From a bacterium (GTDB lineage Bacteria; Acidobacteriota; Thermoanaerobaculia; Multivoradales; JAHEKO01), in the NCBI GenBank assembly GCA_024224155.1, contig JAAENP010000515.1, positions 1-57,835 on the forward strand: a stretch of DNA of 57,835 nucleotides, written 5' to 3'. Position 1 is the first letter of the stretch. Every line of letters begins with the position of its first letter. The notes below the pieces were generated by a model, which worked only from the letters and a program-made list of their open reading frames with translations, did not search any database and was not told where the DNA came from. A program made the position numbers and the translations under genes. This document shows, in pieces, positions 5,425-49,136 of this stretch.

Positions 5425-5724
5425 ATGTTAGTATCCCGCTTTCACCCGCCCGACCCGGACCATGGCAAGGCGCTCAAGCTCGACGGCTCCGAAGTGAAGA
5501 TCGGGCGCTCCGGAGATTGCGATCTCGTGCTCACCGAGCCTCGAGCCAGTTCCGAGCATCTCCAGATAGCATGGCAGCCCGAAGAAGGTTACAGACTGGT
5601 CGATCTCGAGAGCCGCAACGGCACTCTGGTCAACGAGCGACTCGCCGACGATCAACTCTTGCAGCATCTCGATCGCATCCGGATAGGGGACACGGTCGTG
5701 ACATTCGAGATACATGGACACTGA
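5425..5724 (+). CDS. FHA-domain phosphothreonine-binding protein
   Basis: A 99-residue protein that is essentially one FHA domain. The conserved FHA landmarks are in order: KIGRSGDCDLVL (strand 3 with GR), ASSEHLQIAW (the SxxH motif) and LESRNGTLVNE (the NGT/N loop). FHA domains bind phosphothreonine peptides. The stop lies 11 bp inside the downstream Ser/Thr kinase frame, so the pair is probably translationally coupled and the FHA protein is a likely adaptor or substrate of that kinase (inference). The start is ATG 5425; the open frame continues upstream, but that region falls in the divergent promoter and would add non-FHA sequence. Confidence 0.82.
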   Translation: MLVSRFHPPDPDHGKALKLDGSEVKIGRSGDCDLVLTEPRASSEHLQIAWQPEEGYRLVDLESRNGTLVNERLADDQLLQHLDRIRIGDTVVTFEIHGH

Positions 5725-6211
5725 TCATCCAAAGAACATCGGTCCTTACGAGATCCTCGGCGTCATCGGCAAAGGCGCCATGGGCAAGGTGTACAAGGCC
5801 GCGCGGCCTTCCTCGAACCAGATCGTCGCGATCAAAGTGCTGCCGGCCGATCTCGCGGAGGATCAAGAACGAGTCGAGCGTTTCAACCGCGAGGCGCAAG
5901 CCGTGGCGCTGCTCAACCATCCCAACGTCGTGCGGATCCTCGAGAAGGAACAGGCAGACGATCTGCACTACTTCGTCATGGAATACGTGCCGGGAACCTC
6001 ACTCGACGCGGTCCTACGCCAACGGCGACTCTCGCTGCCCGAAGCGATCCGAGTTTTCAAGAGCGTATGCAAGGGACTCGACGCGGCCCACCAGAAGACC
6101 ATCGTTCATCGGGATCTGTCGCCACGCAATATCCTGGTCTCGGAAGACCTGTCCGCGGTCAAGATCGTCGATTTCGGCATCAGCCGGATCGAGACCATCT
6201 CGCAAGATTAG
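5714..6211 (+). pseudogene. Ser/Thr protein kinase, N-terminal part, ended by in-frame TAG
   Basis: This 165-residue open segment holds the kinase N-lobe and catalytic loop. It shows the glycine-rich loop IGKGAMGKVYKA (19-29), VAIK lysine K41, helix C glutamate E60, HRD at 132-134 and DFG at 153-155. TAG (6209-6211) then falls inside the activation loop. The same frame continues at once with GTLSTSEFSLGSLHYMAPEQ, so the missing half (APE motif, C-lobe) lies in the next open segment and the full reading is 5714-7705. A kinase ending after DFG cannot fold, so this is a single-base nonsense mutation, a sequencing error, or a read-through site. CAG to TAG is the simplest change. It overlaps the upstream FHA gene. 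Confidence 0.8.
6209..6211 (+). other. in-frame amber codon in a kinase activation loop
   Basis: TAG in the same phase (first base 2 mod 3) as the kinase start at 5714 and the rest of the kinase from 6212. Flanking residues SQD and GTLS belong to one uninterrupted activation-loop alignment. Nothing around it (no insertion, no repeat) suggests a larger lesion. Confidence 0.85.
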
Positions 6212-6256
6212 GGGACCCTCTCAACGAGCGAATTCAGCCTGGGTTCGCTCCACTAC

Positions 6257-7705
6257 ATGGCGCCCGAGCAGGCACGCAACATGGTGAGCGCCGATCACCG
6301 CGCCGACATCTACTCGCTTGGAGTCCTGCTCTACGAAATGCTCACCGGACGGGTGCCGGTCGGCAGGTTCAACCTCCCGAGTCAACTCAACTCCGAGGTC
6401 CCCCCTGAAGTTGACCCGATCGGGCTGAGATGTCTGGAAGCCGATCCCCAGGACCGCTACCCGACCGTGGCCAGGCTGCTCAAGGAAGTCCGCCGCCTGG
6501 AAGACCAGCTGCGGCTCGGCCTCGTCCACGAGGTCAGAGGCATCGGCAGTCAGACCTCGAAGATCCTGCTCAAATCGACCAGCAGCCGCGTGATCCGGAC
6601 GGGGCTGATCGCGGTTGGGGTGATCGCGCTGATCGGAGCGACCTTCCTGGTTGGGCACTCGCTCAAGAGCGAGCGCGAGGCGCCTTCGACGACGGCAAAG
6701 CGGCCGGTGGAAGTTGTCCAACACGAGCGGCCGGAAGTGCCGGAGACGGAAACCGACCCCTTCGCCGGCGCCCTCGACGGCCTGAACGCGCCCGACACCG
6801 AGGCGTCCGACGAAGATCCGACTGCCTCTGACGACCCCGGCGGGGCTGGCTCCCCTGGCTCCGCTGTCACCGCTGGCTCCACTGGCTCAAATCGAAAGCC
6901 TGACGCCGAGGCGGCCGCGCCGGCCGCCACGCAGTCCATGGCTGCTTCCGCGCCCGAGCGAAGCCCAGCCGGATTGGCGGCGGACCTCGAGGTGGCGCGC
7001 AACCAGCTCGAGGCCGGTCTGCTCGACGAGGCTCGACAGGACCTGGAGAACCTGATCGCGCAGCACCCCCGCGCGGAGCTGACTCCGCGAGCGTACCTGT
7101 TGCTCGGGCGGATCCACGAGAAGCGCGCCAACCGCGACAGAGCGCGCGCAACGTATGTCGAGCTTCAGAGCCGCTTTGGAGAATCCGATGAAGCGGCGGA
7201 GAGCGTGTATCGCAGCGCGAAGCTGTTGCAGGACCAAGGCGGTCGGGATCGCCTTCGCGAGGCACGCTCACTGCTGGGCGAGCTCGCGAAACAGCACCCC
7301 GATAGCCCGTGGGGCGCCAAGGCACTGCTCGAGAAGGCCGCCCTCGAGACCAAGGCCAAGTGGACCCTGGTGGACCCTATTCTCCAGACTCGCGTTCCAG
7401 CGGCCCTGGCCACCTACCGCACGCTGGTTACCAGGTACCCATGGCACGCCGGCTCCGAGGACGCTCTCTGGAACCTGGGTGAAATGTACTTGGAGCTCAA
7501 GAAGTTCGACCTGGCGGTCGAGGCCTTCGAGAACCTGGGAGACCACTTCCCGTCCACCAGGCATGACACCTGGTGGCGCGCGGGCCAGACCTACGATCGC
7601 CGTCTCGACGACAAGACGAAGGCTGTGGCCGCCTATCGCAACGTGCCCTCCAGCTCGCGGCGTTACGGCGAAGCCCAGCGCCGTATCAACAAGCTGAGCA
7701 AGTAG
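6257..7705 (+). CDS. kinase C-lobe, membrane helix and periplasmic TPR domain (continuation of split kinase)
   Basis: Open segment of 482 residues whose first Met is the M of the kinase MAPEQ motif, so it is not a natural start. It is the continuation of the frame that begins at 5714. It contains the C-lobe (ADIYSLGVLLYEMLTG, then DPQDRYPT), one transmembrane helix (113-133), an acidic Ser/Pro/Gly-rich linker, and a C-terminal TPR region resembling the YbgF/BamD-type fold (LLGRIHEKRANRDRA, YPWHAGSEDALWNLGEMY). The restored 663-codon product would be a membrane kinase with a periplasmic TPR sensor or scaffold. Without read-through or repair there is no obvious ribosome site for independent expression. 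Confidence 0.75.
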   Translation: MAPEQARNMVSADHRADIYSLGVLLYEMLTGRVPVGRFNLPSQLNSEVPPEVDPIGLRCLEADPQDRYPTVARLLKEVRRLEDQLRLGLVHEVRGIGSQTSKILLKSTSSRVIRTGLIAVGVIALIGATFLVGHSLKSEREAPSTTAKRPVEVVQHERPEVPETETDPFAGALDGLNAPDTEASDEDPTASDDPGGAGSPGSAVTAGSTGSNRKPDAEAAAPAATQSMAASAPERSPAGLAADLEVARNQLEAGLLDEARQDLENLIAQHPRAELTPRAYLLLGRIHEKRANRDRARATYVELQSRFGESDEAAESVYRSAKLLQDQGGRDRLREARSLLGELAKQHPDSPWGAKALLEKAALETKAKWTLVDPILQTRVPAALATYRTLVTRYPWHAGSEDALWNLGEMYLELKKFDLAVEAFENLGDHFPSTRHDTWWRAGQTYDRRLDDKTKAVAAYRNVPSSSRRYGEAQRRINKLSK

Positions 7706-41650: not shown

Positions 41651-42831
41651 CCGAGCCTTTCCACGACAACGGCCGTAGCTTCGCCACCCCCGAGGCAAAT
41701 GGCGGCACAGCCGCGTCTGGCACCTCGCTGTGTCATCGCGTGCAGGAGGGTCACCAGGATTCGGGCTCCCGAGGCACCGATAGGGTGTCCGAGTGCGACC
41801 GCGCCGCCGTTGACGTTGACCCGATCCTCGGACAATCCCAACTCCTCGATGAACGCCATGGCTACCACCGCAAAGGCCTCGTTCACCTCCCAGAGATCGA
41901 TGTCCTCGATCTCGACTCCGGCGCGGGCGACCGCCCGACGGGCGGCCTCGGCCGGCGCGGTCGTGAACCACTCCGGCTCCTGTGCGAACGAGGCATGAGA
42001 CACCACTCGGGCCATCGGTGGCGTGCAGTCCAGGCTCTTGGCGTGCTCGGCGGTCGTCAGCACGAGCGCCGCGGCGCCATCGTTGATCTTGCTCGAGTTC
42101 GCTGCGGTGATCGTGCCTTCCGGGTCGAACGCGGGCCGGAGCTTGGCCATCTTCTCCAAGTTCACTCGCTCCGGCTCCTCATCGTTGGCTACACGCCGGG
42201 GATCGCCCTTGCGTTGCGGCACCTCGATCGGGACGATCTCCGCTTCGAAAGAACCGCTCTCGCCAGCTCGCTGGGCGCGCCGGTAGCTTTCGGCGGCAAA
42301 AGCATCCTGGCGCTCGCGCGAATACGCGTACTTCCTGGCGCAGAGCTCGCCGCAGTTGCCCATGTGCCCGTCGTTGTATGGGTCCCACAGGCCATCGTGA
42401 ATCATCGAATCGATCAACTTCCCGTGGCCGAGTCGCAAACCGGCCCTGGCATTGAGCGCCAGATAGGGGGCCTGGGACATGCTCTCCATCCCACCCGCGA
42501 CGACCAGATCGAAATCCTCGCAGCGCAGCTCGTTCGCGGCGACCATGACCGCTTTCATCGCCGAACCACAGACCTTGTTCAAGGTAACTGCGCCGGTTGT
42601 GACCGGGCACCCAGCGCCCAGCGCGGCCTGCCTCGCGGGCGCCTGACCGACGCCGGCCGCGAGCACCGAGCCCATGTAAACCTGTTCAACTACCGCCGGC
42701 TCGACCCCTGCCGCTTCGATGGCGCCGGCGATTGCCGCCGCCCCCAGCTGGGGCGAAGTAAGTGAGCTCAACTTCCCCTGGAAGGCGCCGATCGGCGTCC
42801 GCACGGCGCTTAGAATCACGACTTCCCGCAT
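41647..42831 (-). CDS. acetyl-CoA C-acetyltransferase (thiolase)
   Basis: 394 residues from ATG 42831 (MREVVILSAVRTPIG); the frame begins further upstream, but the canonical thiolase N-terminus is here. The acyl-accepting C88 is in NKVCGSAMKAV, and the base and oxyanion residues are in VNEAFAVV, GHPIGASGARI and CLGGGEATA. It condenses two acetyl-CoA or splits acetoacetyl-CoA. The stop overlaps the lptD ATG by 4 bp, an unusual partner for an envelope gene, likely chance operon packing. Confidence 0.92.
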   Translation of the reverse strand: MREVVILSAVRTPIGAFQGKLSSLTSPQLGAAAIAGAIEAAGVEPAVVEQVYMGSVLAAGVGQAPARQAALGAGCPVTTGAVTLNKVCGSAMKAVMVAANELRCEDFDLVVAGGMESMSQAPYLALNARAGLRLGHGKLIDSMIHDGLWDPYNDGHMGNCGELCARKYAYSRERQDAFAAESYRRAQRAGESGSFEAEIVPIEVPQRKGDPRRVANDEEPERVNLEKMAKLRPAFDPEGTITAANSSKINDGAAALVLTTAEHAKSLDCTPPMARVVSHASFAQEPEWFTTAPAEAARRAVARAGVEIEDIDLWEVNEAFAVVAMAFIEELGLSEDRVNVNGGAVALGHPIGASGARILVTLLHAMTQRGARRGCAAICLGGGEATAVVVERLG

Positions 42832-42968
42832 AGCTGTGCTCGGTTTCGCGGTCGGGCTGAAGAAGTCGTAGTGGCCCGAATACCTCCGCTCAAGCAGCGA
42901 AATCCTAGCACACACCAATGGCTCTCGACTCTGTTGACAGATCTCCGAACCGGGGAGAGATTAGGTCG

Positions 42969-43394
42969 ATGAAAGCCCTGGGAATCGACTTCGGCGAGAA
43001 GCGCATCGGGCTGGCGATCTCGGACGCCGACGGCCGCTTCGCGATGCCCTGGAAGACTCTGGCGCGCCGCAATGACCAGCAGGCCATCGAAGAGCTCGGC
43101 GAGATCGCCGCGCAGGAGTCGATCGATCTGATCGTTGCCGGTGACCCGCGAAACCTGGATGGCGACGCGGGCCCCCAGTCCGAGCGTGTGGCCGCTTTCC
43201 TGAAGAAGCTCTCCGCCGCCCTCGATCTGCCGATCGAGACGGTCAACGAGAGCCTGACCAGCCGCGAGGCCCACTCCCGGTTGCGCCAAGCGGGGCTGAC
43301 CGCGCGCCAGCGTCGAGAGCGCGTCGATTCGCTGGCAGCCCAGATTCTGCTGCAGGAGGCTCTCGACCGTCGCCGAAGGGCGGACCCGGCCTGA
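42969..43394 (+). CDS. ruvX: Holliday junction resolvase-like protein RuvX/YqgF
   Basis: 141 residues from ATG 42969 (MKALGIDFG). RNase H-like fold with catalytic D7 in GIDFGEKRIGLA, then IVAGDPRNLDG, TVNESLTSREA and VDSLAAQILLQ carrying the further acidic residues. The family acts on 16S rRNA 5' end processing and possibly on branched DNA. It is divergently transcribed from the thiolase gene and 11 bp before mltG, the common gene pair. Confidence 0.93.
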   Translation: MKALGIDFGEKRIGLAISDADGRFAMPWKTLARRNDQQAIEELGEIAAQESIDLIVAGDPRNLDGDAGPQSERVAAFLKKLSAALDLPIETVNESLTSREAHSRLRQAGLTARQRRERVDSLAAQILLQEALDRRRRADPA

Positions 43395-43405
43395 AACGGC
43401 AATCC

Positions 43406-44512
43406 ATGGGAGCCGCTAGACGCACAGTCGTACTGGCCAGCCTGCTGGCAGTACTGCTCCTGCTCGGCGCCATTGCCGCCGGCCTCGGTCTGGCGTACGC
43501 GCACCGCACGCTCGAGGAGCCATTTCAAGCGTTCCCAGGCTCTGAAACGGTGGTCACGATCTCCTCGGGCACATCCGTGCGGGACAGTCTGAGCCTGCTC
43601 GAACGCCAGGGCGTCATTGCCAACCAGCACCTGGCACGGCTGTATTGGAGGTTCGTGCTCGAGGATCCTGTCCTGATCGCCGGCGAGTATCTATTCAGCG
43701 GACCGGCATCGACCCTGGAAGTGCTGACCAAGATCAGGCGCGGCGAGGTCCTAGCTCATCCGGTAACGATCCTCGAGGGCCTCACCTACGATGAGATCGC
43801 GATGCGTCTTTCCACCGAAGGCTTCGGATCGTACGAGGTATTCCTGTCCGAGATGGCTTCACCAAGCCTGATCGAGGACCTCGATCGGAACGCCGTGGAT
43901 CTGGAGGGCTATCTATTCCCGGACACCTACGCTTTCGCACGCGGCACGAGCGAGGCGGAGATCGTCAAGACGATGGTAGCGGCCTTCCGCGAGCGCTTTC
44001 TGGAGGCCAGGGCGATGGCCAAGGCCGAGGGCTCGAACGGCTCTCCAACCGAGGGTGTGACAAGGACTCCGCGCGAGGTCGTGATTCTGGCGTCGATCGT
44101 CGAGAAAGAGGCGCTTCTCGATCAAGAGAGACCGCTCATCGCCGGCGTCTATGCCAACCGACTCGAACGAGGCATGGGCCTCTATGCCGACCCCACGATT
44201 ATTTACGCCCTCAAGCGTGTCGGCACGTGGGATGGCAACCTGCGTCGCCGGGATCTCGAAATGGACTCGCCCTACAACACCTACCGAACGGCAGGGCTAC
44301 CCCCGGGGCCCATTTGCTCGCCCGGACTCGCCAGCCTGGCGGCAGCGCTGGCGCCCGCGGATGTCCCATATTTGTACTTCGTCAGCAGGAACGACGGCAC
44401 CCACGTGTTCGCCCGGACTCTGGCCGAGCACAACCGAAACGTCCACCAATGGCAGAGGCTCTACTGGCAGCGGCGGTGGGCCGAGAAACGAGAGGGTGAA
44501 AAACTGCATTGA
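43406..44512 (+). CDS. mltG: endolytic murein transglycosylase MltG
   Basis: 368 residues. An N-terminal membrane helix (about 8-30) is followed by a LysM-like segment and the YceG catalytic domain. Motifs include LEGYLFPDTYAFARG, the catalytic glutamate in ASIVEKEA (E233), MGLYADPTIIYAL, SPYNTYRTAGLPPGPICSPG and DGTHVFARTLAEHNRN. It cleaves nascent glycan strands and sets their length. An Asn/Ser/Gly-rich insert near 208-218 is not conserved in family members I know. Confidence 0.93.
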   Translation: MGAARRTVVLASLLAVLLLLGAIAAGLGLAYAHRTLEEPFQAFPGSETVVTISSGTSVRDSLSLLERQGVIANQHLARLYWRFVLEDPVLIAGEYLFSGPASTLEVLTKIRRGEVLAHPVTILEGLTYDEIAMRLSTEGFGSYEVFLSEMASPSLIEDLDRNAVDLEGYLFPDTYAFARGTSEAEIVKTMVAAFRERFLEARAMAKAEGSNGSPTEGVTRTPREVVILASIVEKEALLDQERPLIAGVYANRLERGMGLYADPTIIYALKRVGTWDGNLRRRDLEMDSPYNTYRTAGLPPGPICSPGLASLAAALAPADVPYLYFVSRNDGTHVFARTLAEHNRNVHQWQRLYWQRRWAEKREGEKLH

Positions 44513-44590
44513 CGCGACCCAAGAGACTTCGTTACGAAGGGGTTACCCGATCCAGCCGATTGTCGGTTTCAGGGATCAGGCACGGAGTTA

Positions 44591-46909
44591 ATGATGGACC
44601 AGCCCCAGAATTTCGGCCAGTTTCTCCTATTCCAGAAGAGCGAATCGAATAGCTACCGATCGTGTTATCGGGCCGGTGTCACCCGCGGCCGGGCGATCGA
44701 GCGGATCATCCGGCTGGAAGTCCTCGACCAGCCTGATATCGACGCCGAACGGGTGCTCAGTGGCCTGGATTCCTCGGCAAGTCTCCAGGAGAAGCTCAAA
44801 GACCCCCACATAGCCGCCGGTGCCGGCGTCGGACAGGTCGAGGGAAGCCCGTATGCAGCCTACGATTTCAAGCTGGGCACGACACTCTCGGCATTCCTGA
44901 GCGCCGCGCGGCGACGCTCCTTCCCGGTTCCCTTCGACCAGGCGCTCTTCATAGGCGAACGAATCGCACTGGCCCTGGCCGCCGCCTATCGGATCGAGCA
45001 CGACGATCGTCATGTGCTCCATACGTTCCTGACTCCGGATTCGGTCTTGCTCTCGAACGAAGGCGAGGTCAAGGTCGGCGGATTCGAGTTCGGACGCGCT
45101 CTGCGCGATCAACTTGCCGGGCGCCCCTTCTGCGCGCCTTACCTTTCGCCCAAGTGCCGTGCAGGCCAGGCTCCGCTCGATCAAGACGACGTGTTCTCGC
45201 TCGGTTCAATTCTGTACGAGCTGGTAACCGGAGAGATTCTCGCCATCGAAAACGTCGATCTCGACCATATGGTCGTCCAAGCGACCGGCGAACCGGCCCC
45301 GGAGAGCCTGCGACTTCTCCTCGAGGGGAGCTTCGCACCGACAGCGAGTCGAATCCCGCACGTCATGGCCTGGCAGCAGAGTCTGGGCCGGCTCATCTTG
45401 GACGGCGAGTACAACCCCACGACATTCAATCTGGCCTTCTTGATGCACACTCTCCTTCGAGACGAGCTCGAGCGCGGAGTCGAGGACCTCAAGAAGGAGA
45501 AGAGGTATGTGCTTCCTCAACCGAGAGAGAGTGAGTCGACCGAAGAGGCGACAGCTGAGATCTCGACTACGCTTTCATCAGTAACCGAGGTACCCGAAAA
45601 CGTCGAGGAGCCCGACGTGGAGCTCGCCCCCGGCGATCACGACGAGCCGACGGCCACCGGAGTCGAAGCACTATCCTGGGCGCACGCGGCTGAGGTACCC
45701 GGTATAGCAGCAGACTCGGCCGGCCGCAGACCCTTCTGGCTCGGCTTTGCGGTTTCCGTCGTCGCCGCAAGCGCTGTACTGGGCGCACTCTTGGTTTTCG
45801 GAAGCAGCGCCGAAGAATCCGCCACGAGCCCGCTGGCTGCTCCGGCAAACGCAACCACGCGACTTCCGCTGGTCGAGGAGACGCCGGTGTCCTTGCCAGA
45901 GCCTCCGCCGACCGACCCTGGGGATGCCGAAGGGTCGCAGACCCCGTCGGCGCCCGTGGTGCTCAGCGAGGTCGTCAACGGAGAAGTCGGCCAGCCCCTG
46001 GACGAGGAGGAGGTTCGCCGGGTCGTAGCCGAGCGCGCAGAGGAGATCGAGCGCACACTCAAGGCCGAGTACGAGCAACAGCTGGAGAGCCTGCGCTCAG
46101 AGATCATCGAGAGCCGAGAGCGCGAGCTCGCAGCCGAGATGGAAGCGGCGCCGCCTGAAGAAGTCGTCAGCCCTTTCAGCGAAGCGGCCCGAGTCACCGA
46201 AATCGCATCCCTTCAGAGCGGACTCCAAAGCGAGGGAACCCCCGAGACGCCTCCGATGGATGCCGTGAATGCCCTACCGCAGCCGGCCGGGACCGAACAA
46301 GCCGCTCCAGCCCCGGGCGGCGCGCTCGCGGCTCGGGATGAGCCCTTGACTCCGGCTCCGACGGACCCAGCCGCTCGAGCAGCGGCAGCGACCGAGAACG
46401 AGCCGCTCGAGACCCAGAATGCAGCGAACCGGTCGATGCCGGCGCTGGAGCCTCCAGCAAAGGCTCCTTCCCCTGTCGCGCCGAAGAACCAGGCGCCGAC
46501 TCCGGACGAACTCGTCCGGTTGTCGCCACCGCGGCAAACGGCGAAACCGACGGCGACGGCCCCGAAGCCTGCAGCGCAGGCGCCTTCCCCAGCCGCCGCC
46601 AAGATCCAGGCGCCGACCCCCGTCACCGCCAAGATTCAGGCGCCGACCCCGGCCAAGCTCGTGCGGTTGACTCCACCCACCTACCCGCTGGCGGCGCGCC
46701 GACTCCAACTCTCCGCGACCGCCAGAGTCAAGGTCCTGATCTCGCCCCAGGGCAAGGTCAGGGAGGCCGAAGTCCTCGGTCCGCCGCTCGGCAGCGGCTT
46801 CGACAGCGCCGCGATCGCCGCGGTGCGCAGGTCACGCTGGCAGCCGGCCACCAGGAATGGCGAGCCGGTGGAGTCCTGGACCGCGGTCACGATCCAGTTT
46901 CAGCCCTGA
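44591..46909 (+). CDS. pseudokinase-transmembrane-TonB C-terminal fusion protein
   Basis: 772 residues in four parts. (1) A Ser/Thr-kinase-like fold, about 1-290: it has VFSLGSILYELVTGE but no glycine loop, R41 at the usual Lys position, LHTFLTPDSVLL (143-154) in place of HRDLKPENIL, and EFG (166-168) in place of DFG, so it should be catalytically dead. (2) A membrane helix, 382-404. (3) A Pro/Ala/Glu-rich and coiled-coil stretch (about 470-530) with repeats of KIQAPTP. (4) A TonB C-terminal domain (about 690-772) with YPLAARRLQLSATARVKV and ending SWTAVTIQF. The likely topology is cytoplasmic pseudokinase, periplasmic TonB domain. I know no name for it. Confidence 0.8.
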   Translation: MMDQPQNFGQFLLFQKSESNSYRSCYRAGVTRGRAIERIIRLEVLDQPDIDAERVLSGLDSSASLQEKLKDPHIAAGAGVGQVEGSPYAAYDFKLGTTLSAFLSAARRRSFPVPFDQALFIGERIALALAAAYRIEHDDRHVLHTFLTPDSVLLSNEGEVKVGGFEFGRALRDQLAGRPFCAPYLSPKCRAGQAPLDQDDVFSLGSILYELVTGEILAIENVDLDHMVVQATGEPAPESLRLLLEGSFAPTASRIPHVMAWQQSLGRLILDGEYNPTTFNLAFLMHTLLRDELERGVEDLKKEKRYVLPQPRESESTEEATAEISTTLSSVTEVPENVEEPDVELAPGDHDEPTATGVEALSWAHAAEVPGIAADSAGRRPFWLGFAVSVVAASAVLGALLVFGSSAEESATSPLAAPANATTRLPLVEETPVSLPEPPPTDPGDAEGSQTPSAPVVLSEVVNGEVGQPLDEEEVRRVVAERAEEIERTLKAEYEQQLESLRSEIIESRERELAAEMEAAPPEEVVSPFSEAARVTEIASLQSGLQSEGTPETPPMDAVNALPQPAGTEQAAPAPGGALAARDEPLTPAPTDPAARAAAATENEPLETQNAANRSMPALEPPAKAPSPVAPKNQAPTPDELVRLSPPRQTAKPTATAPKPAAQAPSPAAAKIQAPTPVTAKIQAPTPAKLVRLTPPTYPLAARRLQLSATARVKVLISPQGKVREAEVLGPPLGSGFDSAAIAAVRRSRWQPATRNGEPVESWTAVTIQFQP

Positions 46910-46970
46910 ACTTCTTCCGACAGACTGGCCGGTATTGTCACTTGCCTTCGTATTCTGGATAGAAGCCCTT

Positions 46971-46976
46971 TATAAT
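46971..46976 (+). promoter_or_regulatory. candidate -10 element (TATAAT) upstream of the csgG-like gene
   Basis: Perfect TATAAT 44 bp before the ATG at 47020, in a 110-bp gap. No matching -35 at 16-18 bp (the nearest TTGCCT is 23 bp away), so promoter strength is uncertain. Confidence 0.35.
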
Positions 46977-47019
46977 AAGGTTTTGTGCAGACGATTGGCC
47001 GCAGGCCGGGAGGAGACGT

Positions 47020-47733
47020 ATGAAGCTATTTTTCAGGAGTTCGATTGTGGCCGCCGGGGCGCTGGTATTCATGGCAGGCATTGCTGCCGCGGAAAAACCC
47101 TCGATCGGAGTGGCCGAGTTTCGCAACAAGACCAACGCCGGCTGGTGGTACAGCGGTGTGGGCTGGGACCTCGCCGACACGGTCACCAACGAACTCGCTT
47201 CTCTAGGTTCCTTCACCGTGGTCGAGCGAGCCAACCTCGAGCCGGTGCTCCGGGAGCAGGACCTCGCCGACTACGGTCGGGTGAGCAAGGGCACCGGTGC
47301 CAAGATCGGCAAACTCACCGGCGCCAAGTATCTGGTTATGGGTAGCCTGTCGTCGTACGAAGAGAACGTCAAAGGCGGCAAGGGCGGAATCGGCTACAAA
47401 GGTATCCGGCTCGGCGGCAAGAAGAACGAGGTCTACATGGCCGTCGATCTGCGGGTCGTCGACACCACGAGCGGCGAGGTCGCCTTCACGCGCACAGTGG
47501 AAGCGCGGACCGGCGGCAGAGGCTTCAACGTCGGTGTGTTCAGGAGCGGCTTCGGCGGCAACCTCGCCAAGGAGGAGAAGACACCCGCGGGCAAAGCCAT
47601 TCGCGCATGTCTGATCGAAATCGTCGACTATCTCGAGTGCGCCATGGTCAAGCAGGATTCATGCATGGCCGAGTTCGACGCCAAGGAGCGCAAGCGGAGA
47701 GATAGCGCGAAGGGCTCGATCAAACTCGACTAG
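47020..47733 (+). CDS. CsgG/curli-assembly-like lipocalin-independent secretion protein, periplasmic
   Basis: 237 residues. A signal peptide (1-24, no lipobox Cys) and a CsgG-like domain: IGVAEFRNKTNAGWWYSGV, then LADTVTNELASLGSFTVVER, LEPVLREQDLADYGR and AKYLVMGSLSSYEEN. A region of TGGRGFNVGVFRSGFGGN precedes a final Lys/Asp-rich tail with four Cys. CsgG proper is an outer-membrane lipoprotein pore; this one lacks the lipid anchor and is more like the wider CsgG/TolB-N fold found beside TonB and TPR genes. Its role is therefore uncertain. A strong hairpin follows. Confidence 0.75.
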   Translation: MKLFFRSSIVAAGALVFMAGIAAAEKPSIGVAEFRNKTNAGWWYSGVGWDLADTVTNELASLGSFTVVERANLEPVLREQDLADYGRVSKGTGAKIGKLTGAKYLVMGSLSSYEENVKGGKGGIGYKGIRLGGKKNEVYMAVDLRVVDTTSGEVAFTRTVEARTGGRGFNVGVFRSGFGGNLAKEEKTPAGKAIRACLIEIVDYLECAMVKQDSCMAEFDAKERKRRDSAKGSIKLD

Positions 47734-47742
47734 AACGATTCG

Positions 47743-47773
47743 AACCGGTCCGCGGCCTTGCCGCGGACCGGTT
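47743..47773 (+). terminator. hairpin terminator after the CsgG-like gene
   Basis: Perfect 13-bp stem AACCGGTCCGCGG / CCGCGGACCGGTT with a 5-nt loop, ten bp after the stop, followed by GCTTTCCC (a short, weak T run). Confidence 0.75.
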
Positions 47774-47825
47774 GCTTTCCCGAACAACAAGCTCCCGGAC
47801 GGGCAACCCCCTCCGAAACCAGACC

Positions 47826-48548
47826 GTGATCGTCACTGAGCGAAGTGATGAGCTCTTGCTCTTCACACAACCGGATCATGCCGCGCTGGCCGGCTCCTTG
47901 ATGAATCTATGGCGGAGCGACGGTCTCCCCGAGCATCCGCGACGCCAACAGCTGCTGCACGCGATCCGCGAGCACGACAATGGCTGGCGCGAAGCCGATG
48001 CCGCGCCACAGGTCGACCCTGTGTCCGGCAAGCCCTTGACGTTCAACGAGATACCGTCCGAGGATCGTCTCCGGATCTGGCGGCGCGGCGTTCACCGCGT
48101 CGCCGCCGAGGCCCCCGTCGTCGGACTCCTCGTCCTGAAGCACGCGCTCGAGATTCATCCGGACTACTGGAGCGAGGCCGGCTGGAATGAACTCGGAGAG
48201 GACTTTGCCGAGCTCGAAGAGGAGCTTCTGGCGGTTGCCGGAGTCACTCGATCACTGGTCCAGAACGACTACAAGTTTCTCGAGCTCGCCGACACCCTCT
48301 CCCTGGGGGCCTGTGGGGCCTTGGGCACCGACCCCGTCCAAAGCGTCTCGGACCGCTACCGATTCGAGCTCGAGGTGGGACGTATCGCGCTCAGCCCCTT
48401 CCCGCTTGCCGGGGCGACGACTCTGGGCATCGCCTGCCGAACGCTGACCAAAACGACCTTCGAAAGTGACGCGGCCCTCGCCGCGGAGCTCGCCGTCTCG
48501 ACTTGGAGCCGGCTTCCGGTACACGTAGAGCCCCTCGATGGCAGATGA
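47826..48548 (+). CDS. DUF3891 family protein
   Basis: 240 residues from GTG 47826, giving MIVTERSDELLLFTQPDHAALAG, the typical N-terminus of the family; an upstream TTG would lie in the terminator hairpin. HAIREHDNGWREADAAP carries the His/Asp pair expected of an HD-like helical fold, and FLELADTLSLGACGA is conserved. No reaction is known for DUF3891; the histidine and aspartate set hints at a metal-dependent hydrolase (inference). It is 33 bp before the alkyltransferase-like gene. Confidence 0.78.
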   Translation: MIVTERSDELLLFTQPDHAALAGSLMNLWRSDGLPEHPRRQQLLHAIREHDNGWREADAAPQVDPVSGKPLTFNEIPSEDRLRIWRRGVHRVAAEAPVVGLLVLKHALEIHPDYWSEAGWNELGEDFAELEEELLAVAGVTRSLVQNDYKFLELADTLSLGACGALGTDPVQSVSDRYRFELEVGRIALSPFPLAGATTLGIACRTLTKTTFESDAALAAELAVSTWSRLPVHVEPLDGR

Positions 48549-48581
48549 TCCGGCACCGACTCCGTGATAGCCTTTCGCCCC

Positions 48582-49136
48582 ATGTTGGAATCCGCAGATG
48601 CGGGGCAAGTGGCGACCGAAGCCCCTGAGCCGATTCAGCGTGTGCTGGTTCCGTCCGCACTTGGGGCGCTCGGCCTGGAGCTCACCGGCGAGAAGCTGAC
48701 CCACGTGGTGATCGTTCCCAAGGGTCGGGAGCGAAAGGAATTCACCCCATTCGGAGATCTGAAAAGGTCCGAACGCAGCGACTTTCTGGACGAGACGCTG
48801 GGTCGTTTCTCAGAGTACCTGGCCGGCGCTCGCAGCCGCCTCGGAATCGACTATGACCTCGGCCCGTCGGGCGTGACCGGCTTCCCCAGGCGTGTGCTCC
48901 GCGAGACCGCCAAGATCTCGTACGGGAGAGTCCGCACTTACCAGCAGATCGCTTCGGCGGCCGGAAACGGGGGGGCCTACCGTCAGGTTCTGGCAATCCT
49001 CCTGACCAACCCACTGCCGCTGGTGATCCCCTGCCACCGGGTCGTGACCGTAAAGTCGGGGCCCGGCAGCTATGTTGCCGGGCCCAAGAAAAAGCTTTGG
49101 TTACTGCGCCTGGAACAGCGCGGCTTGACGATTTAG
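48582..49136 (+). CDS. O6-alkylguanine-DNA alkyltransferase-like protein
   Basis: 184 residues from ATG 48582 (a GTG 18 bp upstream is possible). The C-terminal MGMT domain has FPRRVLRETAKISYGRVRTY, YRQVLAILLTNPLPLVIPCHRVV with acceptor C151, and GPKKKLWLLRLEQRG. The family transfers alkyl groups from O6-guanine to this Cys. The N-terminal half is the ferredoxin-like domain. Active-site Cys and His are present, so it may be functional; the catalytic glutamate neighbourhood differs slightly. It ends 4 bp inside the convergent PEGA gene. Confidence 0.88.
   Translation: MLESADAGQVATEAPEPIQRVLVPSALGALGLELTGEKLTHVVIVPKGRERKEFTPFGDLKRSERSDFLDETLGRFSEYLAGARSRLGIDYDLGPSGVTGFPRRVLRETAKISYGRVRTYQQIASAAGNGGAYRQVLAILLTNPLPLVIPCHRVVTVKSGPGSYVAGPKKKLWLLRLEQRGLTI

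Follow-up and report, generated by a model that had tools for sequence, protein, structure and literature searches.

In the gliding machinery of Myxococcus xanthus, GltG (PglI) and GltJ (AgmX) combine a single membrane helix, a periplasmic helical part and a TonB_C-type end (PMC3169522, PMC5349195; these papers, PMC12204202, PMC8262864 and PMC12599244 are cited throughout for the portions consulted). GltG adds a cytoplasmic FHA signalling head, giving the order FHA, transmembrane (TM) helix, TonB_C, and bound the motor protein AglR in a two-hybrid test (PMC3169522). Here we describe a gene of similar plan in a 57,835-nucleotide stretch of an Acidobacteriota genome of the class Thermoanaerobaculia (contig JAAENP010000515.1), hereafter the window. 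Its product shares with GltG and GltJ the order of head, one TM helix, long linker and TonB_C, the head being placed in the cytoplasm by prediction. The FHA head of GltG is replaced by a kinase fold, and GltG and GltJ work with the AglRQS motor and the glt genes. These proteins are closest in plan and offer a precedent for the layout; a preliminary description, made from the sequence of the window, had overstated its novelty in finding no named system so arranged, as GltG is built alike apart from its head (PMC3169522). We propose, with a probability of roughly 0.43, that the window protein is an unpowered trans-envelope adaptor built on a pseudokinase, whose likeliest client in Thermoanaerobaculia is the peptidoglycan machinery in the area of MltG.

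Canonical TonB resembles the window protein in its C-terminal fold, single TM helix and Pro-rich linker, but has an N-terminal TM helix with a motor-contact motif, generally no cytoplasmic domain, and the partners ExbB and ExbD (PMC12204202, PMC8262864). The motif, of the SHLS type with a His in the TM helix, is described in PMC12204202. Closest in kind are the degraded bacterial kinases covered in PMC12599244. The GLW, CP1, MviN-type (mviN appears in Table 1 of that paper) and EssB/YukC pseudokinases likewise have degraded catalytic motifs, and EssB and GLW are membrane-attached, whereas their replacement motifs and partner domains are different ones (PMC12599244). In GLW pseudokinases, GLW replaces HRD and poly-Leu lies at the beta-3 Lys (PMC12599244). 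The window head instead has HTF, its relatives mostly have HGF, and IRLE or VLLR stands at the beta-3 Lys. MviN-type (ActPs3) pseudokinases are attached to a lipid II flippase; the Pfam matches of the window protein are confined to kinase and TonB_C families, with neither a flippase nor an FHA domain. EssB/YukC has a role in type VII secretion. SjdR, a TonB-like protein of Anabaena, differs in being short, in having no TonB-like periplasmic domain and in having no reported kinase-fold head.

A role has been established for few bacterial pseudokinases (PMC12599244). No kinase-TonB_C protein, and no pseudokinase joined to a TonB domain, was described in the literature searched, preprints and most subscription papers lying outside its scope. 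By word search, "TonB" and "Acidobacteri" are absent from the main text of PMC12599244, and "TonB" from PMC1262709, PMC2877116 and PMC11032199; "kinase" is absent from the portion consulted of PMC12204202, which treats TonB/TolA evolution.

A kinase fold that has lost its catalytic residues

The assignment of a kinase fold and a TonB_C domain to this protein is far beyond chance. On the head, the Pfam family PK_Tyr_Ser-Thr scores 24.9 bits, above its cut-off of 23.1, and Pkinase scores 28.3 bits, under its cut-off of 31.7; in a phmmer comparison with solved structures, StkP was matched at E 4e-11. AlphaFold2, supplied with a 48-row alignment, modelled residues 1-335 at a predicted local distance difference test score (pLDDT) of 92.6; the confident kinase fold spans residues 1-305 and includes an additional helix, 278-304. 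The best structural matches of this model are kinases, namely MAP2K6 (Z 26.1) and PknI (24.6), rows within 1 being tied.

Active Ser/Thr kinases carry catalytic residues that the window head does not: E43, F146 and G164 occupy the positions of the VAIK Lys, the HRD Asp and the DFG Asp. Structure prediction confirmed the two folds that the preliminary description had proposed to be joined by one membrane helix, and the N-terminal region, on whose folding as a kinase that proposal had been made to depend, was modelled at pLDDT 92.6 with kinase matches at Z 24-26. The details called for correction. The VAIK lysine position had been assigned to R41, which aligns with the Ala of VAIK, the residue in question being E43; both HRD and DFG are gone, as had been stated, with HTF (144-146) replacing the former, but the replacement for DFG is GFE (164-166) and not EFG.

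The same losses extend across the relatives of the window gene. In a head alignment of 70 rows (the window, 68 loci and one tandem copy), none of the 68 scorable heads, window included, retains the HRD Asp, so that the window gene, contrary to a concern raised earlier, is not a decayed copy of orthologues with an intact HRD. The HRD His is kept in 63 of these 68 heads and Gly stands in place of Arg in 64, giving HG where HR is expected in most rows, mostly within an "HGF..P"-type motif. The VAIK Lys persists in 4/66 scorable heads; the DFG Asp is aligned in 4/69, with Gly at that position in 60/69. The three catalytic residues are nowhere retained together, and L112 is the only row with two of them. 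The alpha-F Asp, however, is kept in 67 of the 70 heads. Since this residue persists while the HRD Asp is gone, selection is keeping a dead kinase. Several dead heads (L101, L109-L112, L116) still pass the Pfam cut-off for Pkinase. On the strength of the alignments and the model, we regard the head as a predicted pseudokinase.

Among 48 heads, seven columns are invariant (R27, L129, P149, G158, F279, L281 and E303). The motif of the helix that follows the fold had partly selected the scanned loci; for this reason it was examined again in 17 heads that had been retrieved with a profile and not with the pattern, and its Phe and its Ala were each kept in all 17.

These patterns bear on two other explanations. 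An alternative by which the head retains a non-canonical activity, such as the AMPylation or glutamylation of SelO and SidJ, draws on the other chemistry known in some pseudokinases (PMC12599244); we consider it very unlikely, given that no row keeps the Lys with both Asp residues, that only L112 keeps two of the three, and that the seven invariant columns do not, in our reading, suggest a new active site. Ordinary decay, by which the gene would come from a kinase inactivated not long ago or from faulty assembly, could be entertained because the relatives from the window's own family are draft assemblies of many contigs. It is refuted by open frames in many genomes across the phylum, some of them single-contig assemblies and two from isolates, in which conserved motifs stand where the catalytic ones were lost, and we give it practically no credence.

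A TonB C-terminal domain behind a membrane helix without a motor-contact His

At the opposite end of the protein, PF03544 (TonB_C) matches residues 695-771 with 61.4 bits (E 1e-16, cut-off 24.6 in Pfam), and the NCBIfam tonB_Cterm model passes its own cut-off; the NCBIfam PASTA kinase and MADS6 models match far under theirs. The C-terminal piece was modelled at pLDDT 87.6, and its best matches are TonB C-terminal domains (CTDs; Z up to 11.8), with TolA CTDs at 6.7 or less. The tail may still have a TolA-like role. The linker, described earlier as a spacer of nearly 300 residues, indeed measures 289 and is the longest of 69 (144-289, median 182); by eye, residues ~467-525 form a charged, coiled-coil-like stretch. 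Canonical TonB and TolA have their membrane helix at the N-terminus, whereas the TM helix of the window protein starts near residue 384, behind the kinase-fold head. Coordinates are collected in Table 1.

Table 1. Features of the pseudokinase-TonB_C gene and of its neighbours, in positions of the window
Feature	Position	Strand	Evidence or remark
Pseudokinase-TM-TonB_C gene	44591..46909	+	772 aa; translates without internal stop
Pseudokinase fold, ~residues 5-272	44603..45406	+	AlphaFold2 pLDDT 92.6; PDB kinases Z 24-26; phmmer E 4e-11
E43 at VAIK lysine position	44717..44719	+	Alignments with intact REC-kinases
HTFLTPDSV (144-152) replacing HRDxxxxN	45020..45046	+	Family alignment; usual family signature HGF..P
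GFE (164-166) replacing DFG	45080..45088	+	Family alignment
Post-fold C-terminal helix, residues 276-304, motif PTTFNLAFLMH (276-286)	45416..45502	+	Modelled helix 278-304
Single transmembrane helix, ~residues 384-406	45740..45808	+	Hydropathy 2.40 over 19 residues; no His
Periplasmic linker, ~residues 407-694, Pro/Ala-rich	45809..46672	+	Translation, linker lengths
TonB C-terminal domain, residues 695-771	46673..46903	+	PF03544 61.4 bits; model and TonB CTD matches
mltG (YceG-like lytic transglycosylase), 78 bp upstream	43406..44512	+	PF02618 283 bits
ruvX (yqgF), opens conserved gene run	42918..43394	+	PF03652 138 bits
CsgG/LpoB-like secreted protein gene	47020..47733	+	PF03783 167 bits, PF13036 35 bits

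No motor-contact His of the SHLS type was found in the TM helix of the window protein or in the core of the TM segments of 73 members; the segment of L167 has one His, at its outer edge. A His is present in the TM helix of 3/5 other TonB_C proteins examined, including one encoded ~1 kb from exbB in the window's genome. That genome has two ExbB-type genes, neither on the contig of the window gene and each near another TonB_C gene; MotA_ExbB matches occur only on its contigs C154 and C129, and no TolQ-type motor gene lies beside the window gene.

These observations have to be set against an energised, TonB/TolA-like force transducer, in which an ExbBD- or TolQR-type motor would drive the arm and the pseudokinase would gate it. 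The TonB-like rather than TolA-like character of the window tail fits such a device, as does the binding of the FHA-headed GltG to the AglR motor protein in the two-hybrid test (PMC3169522). With no core TM His in any of the 73 members, a His in three of the five comparison proteins, and both ExbB-type genes of the genome lying elsewhere, near other TonB_C genes, we consider this alternative unlikely. An unpowered adaptor is favoured because the TM helix is without the motor-contact His that the exbB-linked TonB of the same genome has. The earlier suggestion that ExbB-type anchoring is absent is thereby supported in part, by the TM composition.

TonB_C recurs throughout the family. By a profile built from the window's own family only, it is present in 48 of 52 family loci, those without it being L074, L094 (contig end), L105 and L114 (head-only proteins). 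A second profile, A3, finds it in 63/68 loci, missing it in the same four and in L149 (contig end); as A3 includes many of the loci on which it was counted, we prefer the first count. None of the 17 loci L130-L146 is itself a row of A3, although L134 repeats L102, which is; every one of them carries TonB_C. Pfam agrees on the domain for the window, L045, L112, L116, L143 and L162.

Distribution and origin of the family

A locus scan of genome contigs returned 60 loci, of which 52 were family members by profile; the other 8 kinase-like matches (L119, L121-L127), without TonB_C, were excluded from the counts. Scan loci with a named group came from Thermoanaerobaculia/Thermoanaerobaculum (15), Holophagae/Holophagales (4) and Vicinamibacteria (1). 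Two isolates, Sulfidibacter corallicola (L109) and Acanthopleuribacter pedis (L111), carry a relative, in neither case in an mltG neighbourhood. When 148 genomes of the class Thermoanaerobaculia were searched with a 48-row head profile, an estimated 111, spread over all 17 families sampled, encoded the pseudokinase; for G062 and G008 the match was partial. This estimate uses a score line drawn after the scores had been seen, at least ~233 bits, where frames are mostly 600-760 aa and reach into the C-terminal helix; at 219 bits and less, frames are mostly ~950-1060 aa, and the two examined (L147, L148) are REC-kinases, kinases with a receiver (REC) domain. Thirty-seven genomes are without the pseudokinase, 21 of them from one genus (g23). 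These 21 genomes (G063-G083) match neither the pseudokinase nor the REC-kinase and contain few kinase matches overall.

Beyond the class, 76 of 396 genomes of the phylum match the head profile at E<=1e-66, 43 of them outside Thermoanaerobaculia. Each of ten loci examined from these other classes shows an HG or YG motif and has TonB_C as judged by the profile; three of the ten (L165, L166, L170) repeat loci already counted. The 31 pseudokinase heads included in a tree of 51 kinase domains all fall into one clade (100/99), which is sister (98/98) to the REC-kinases and apart from 11 other kinases. The family is old, of a single origin, spread across the Acidobacteriota and apparently undescribed so far.

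Some members depart from the common plan. L105:5875-7005 and L114:5770-6879 encode complete heads of 369-376 aa that lack TonB_C and for which no membrane helix was predicted; both come from metagenome-assembled genomes (OFTM223, OFTM268) that also encode a full-length gene (L092, L093). A tandem pair of full pseudokinase-TonB_C genes occurs at L143:1543-5603. An apparent pseudokinase-CsgG fusion (a 1027 aa frame in the genome of L037/L068) was set aside, as it runs through unknown bases (X) near the TonB_C end.

The sister group of REC-kinases

Seven REC-kinase proteins of the same class (L047, L048, L049, L052, L053, L147, L148) resemble the family in having a kinase fold, TM helix, linker and TonB_C, and differ from it in a long N-terminal part with a receiver domain, in a full catalytic set, intact in 7/7 aligned, and in lying at other loci. 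Pfam reports the receiver domain in four of the seven (L047, L147, L148 and, below cut-off, L048) and, at E<=0.01, none in L049, L052 and L053. None of the seven TM segments has a His. No description of REC-kinase-TonB_C proteins was found in the literature searched. The REC-kinase of the window's own genome (L067:7511-10333) falls in the same clade and consists of REC and kinase domains with a hydrophobic end segment, without linker or TonB_C.

A kinase-pseudokinase receptor pair is therefore worth weighing, in which the pseudokinase would allosterically regulate the REC-kinase, both reaching the outer membrane by TonB_C, and envelope state would be reported by phosphorylation. The REC-kinases are the sister clade, are intact in all seven proteins and are matched in 105/148 class genomes (E<=1e-90), nearly always by a single match. 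Cross-tabulation of the 148 genomes gives 93 with both kinds, 18 with the pseudokinase only, 12 with the REC-kinase only and 25 with neither, 23 genomes without a REC-kinase being assigned by elimination. The 93 genomes with both also dispose, across the class, of the idea that pseudokinase and REC-kinase-TonB_C exclude each other, as they had seemed to do in the window's own family; two of the genomes examined, G143 and G029, each encode a pseudokinase and a REC-kinase carrying TonB_C. However, 18 of the 111 pseudokinase genomes, five of them >95% complete, have no REC-kinase match, the REC-kinase occurs alone in 12, that of the window genome has no TonB_C even though the hydrophobic end segment is kept, and the two genes lie together in none of the loci examined. 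We consider such a pair doubtful, at about one chance in four.

The preliminary description had named an active kinase at 5714-7705 of the window as a possible partner. This gene has VAIK, HRD and DFG, but its reading frame is interrupted in the activation loop by one stop, a TAG at 6209-6211, which represents either a sequencing error or a broken gene. As a partner kinase, the REC-kinase sister clade would be the better candidate, judging from sequence relationships. Just upstream of the split gene lies an FHA-domain frame (5425-5724; PF00498, 61 bits).

Gene neighbourhood

The steady partner of the gene, overlooked earlier, is the upstream ruvX-mltG pair. Within the window's own family, 11 of 18 genomes, one of them the window's, have the gene after ruvX-mltG. 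Of 68 loci, 47 have a co-directional mltG that lies no more than 450 bp upstream of the head, and in 45 of those 47 ruvX is also upstream. Among the other 21, L133 and L139 have ruvX directly before the head and no mltG, mltG is convergent in L089 and 3.3 kb away in L074, and L120 ends at the contig start; no reference neighbour gene is seen at L077, L105, L113, L114 or L149.

In a second clade, a HIT-like gene comes next in 7/7 loci (L101, L104, L106, L108-L111) and an SLT-type lytic transglycosylase is present in six of the seven; MurF-Alr-like and Ddl-like genes lie upstream in L109-L111. Pfam was run on L101, L109 and L111 as examples of these neighbourhoods. The link to wall genes is strong in one class, suggestive in the second clade and not seen elsewhere, and a general link to peptidoglycan genes is weakened by the loci of other classes.

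The CsgG-like gene downstream, to which the preliminary description had drawn attention, is real (PF03783, 167 bits) but shares the direction of the pseudokinase gene only in the window and in two relatives of the same genus, and lies on the opposite strand in the 19 other loci where it was found. We thus rejected it as an operon partner beyond close relatives; it is probably not a fixed part of the arrangement. A promoter scan of 42700-48700 returned no sigma-70-like promoter, and terminator-like matches fell under the shuffle mean, so the scan says little.

A proposed trans-envelope adaptor

In the adaptor that we propose, the kinase fold, having lost its nucleotide-binding and phosphotransfer residues, would serve as a protein-binding platform in the cytoplasm, with the conserved helix behind it as a probable binding site. 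One membrane helix without a motor-contact motif would anchor the protein, and the long flexible arm would take TonB_C across the peptidoglycan to a partner that lies either at the outer membrane, as a TonB-box-like peptide, or in the wall. Each end would inform the other of its position or occupancy by scaffolding or local recruitment, without any phosphate being passed on. The most likely client in Thermoanaerobaculia would be the peptidoglycan machinery around MltG, whose activity may be linked to the adaptor. The layout, both folds, the absence of the catalytic Asp from all scorable relatives, their common origin and the ruvX-mltG neighbourhood of one class are observed; we infer the topology, including the cytoplasmic head, the lack of energy coupling and the candidate partners.

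Several observations weigh against this proposal. The control for the TM His is small, and two of its five proteins, L056 (headless) and L157 (with a signal-peptide-like N-terminus), are also without it. The plan by itself leaves energy coupling possible by analogy with GltG, which binds AglR despite its cytoplasmic head. In the HIT/SLT clade, to which both isolates belong, Pfam is silent on TonB_C in L109 and L110, L101 (19.5 bits) and L111 (16.2) fall under its cut-off of 24.6, and the domain is recognised by our own profile alone, at 20-39 bits; from sequence, this tail is presumably a diverged TonB_C relative. Across 28 rows, TonB_C has 2 invariant columns, a divergence that makes one conserved partner doubtful. 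The string TFNLA of the post-fold helix is missing in 4/10 loci from other classes, and nine of those ten loci have no reference neighbour among the frames listed. In L112 and L116-L118 the gene lies just before F-type ATP synthase genes (named by eye, with Pfam run on two L116 genes). Finally, the mltG arrangement within one class may reflect a single inherited event.

A bolder version of the adaptor would be a phosphate-free device used throughout the phylum, with the TonB-docked dead kinase timing the ending of glycan strands by MltG, the state of the outer membrane thereby setting wall growth, and the REC-kinase-TonB_C sister acting as an alternative or partner reader. We hold this version to be improbable.

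The family is old and occurs widely in a phylum that has been little studied; all of its scorable members are dead, and in one class it is near-fixed beside mltG. It offers a testable case of a kinase fold retained for scaffolding across the whole envelope. Genetics may be possible, as two isolates carry a relative, though with a diverged TonB_C.

Other TonB_C proteins

In these genomes TonB_C is joined to many kinds of head (dead kinase, live REC-kinase, DUF4388, TIR), which shows it as a docking end open to reuse, beyond its place at the tip of the import motor. A DUF4388 head and TonB_C occur in one protein at L051:1284-3428 and L054:5340-6935, with a hydrophobic stretch between them by eye. 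In the window's genome, a headless TM-TonB_C protein (L056:10669-11421) has an end domain 52% identical to the window tail. A same-genus relative encodes a TIR domain and TonB_C in one protein (L159:4110-6146).

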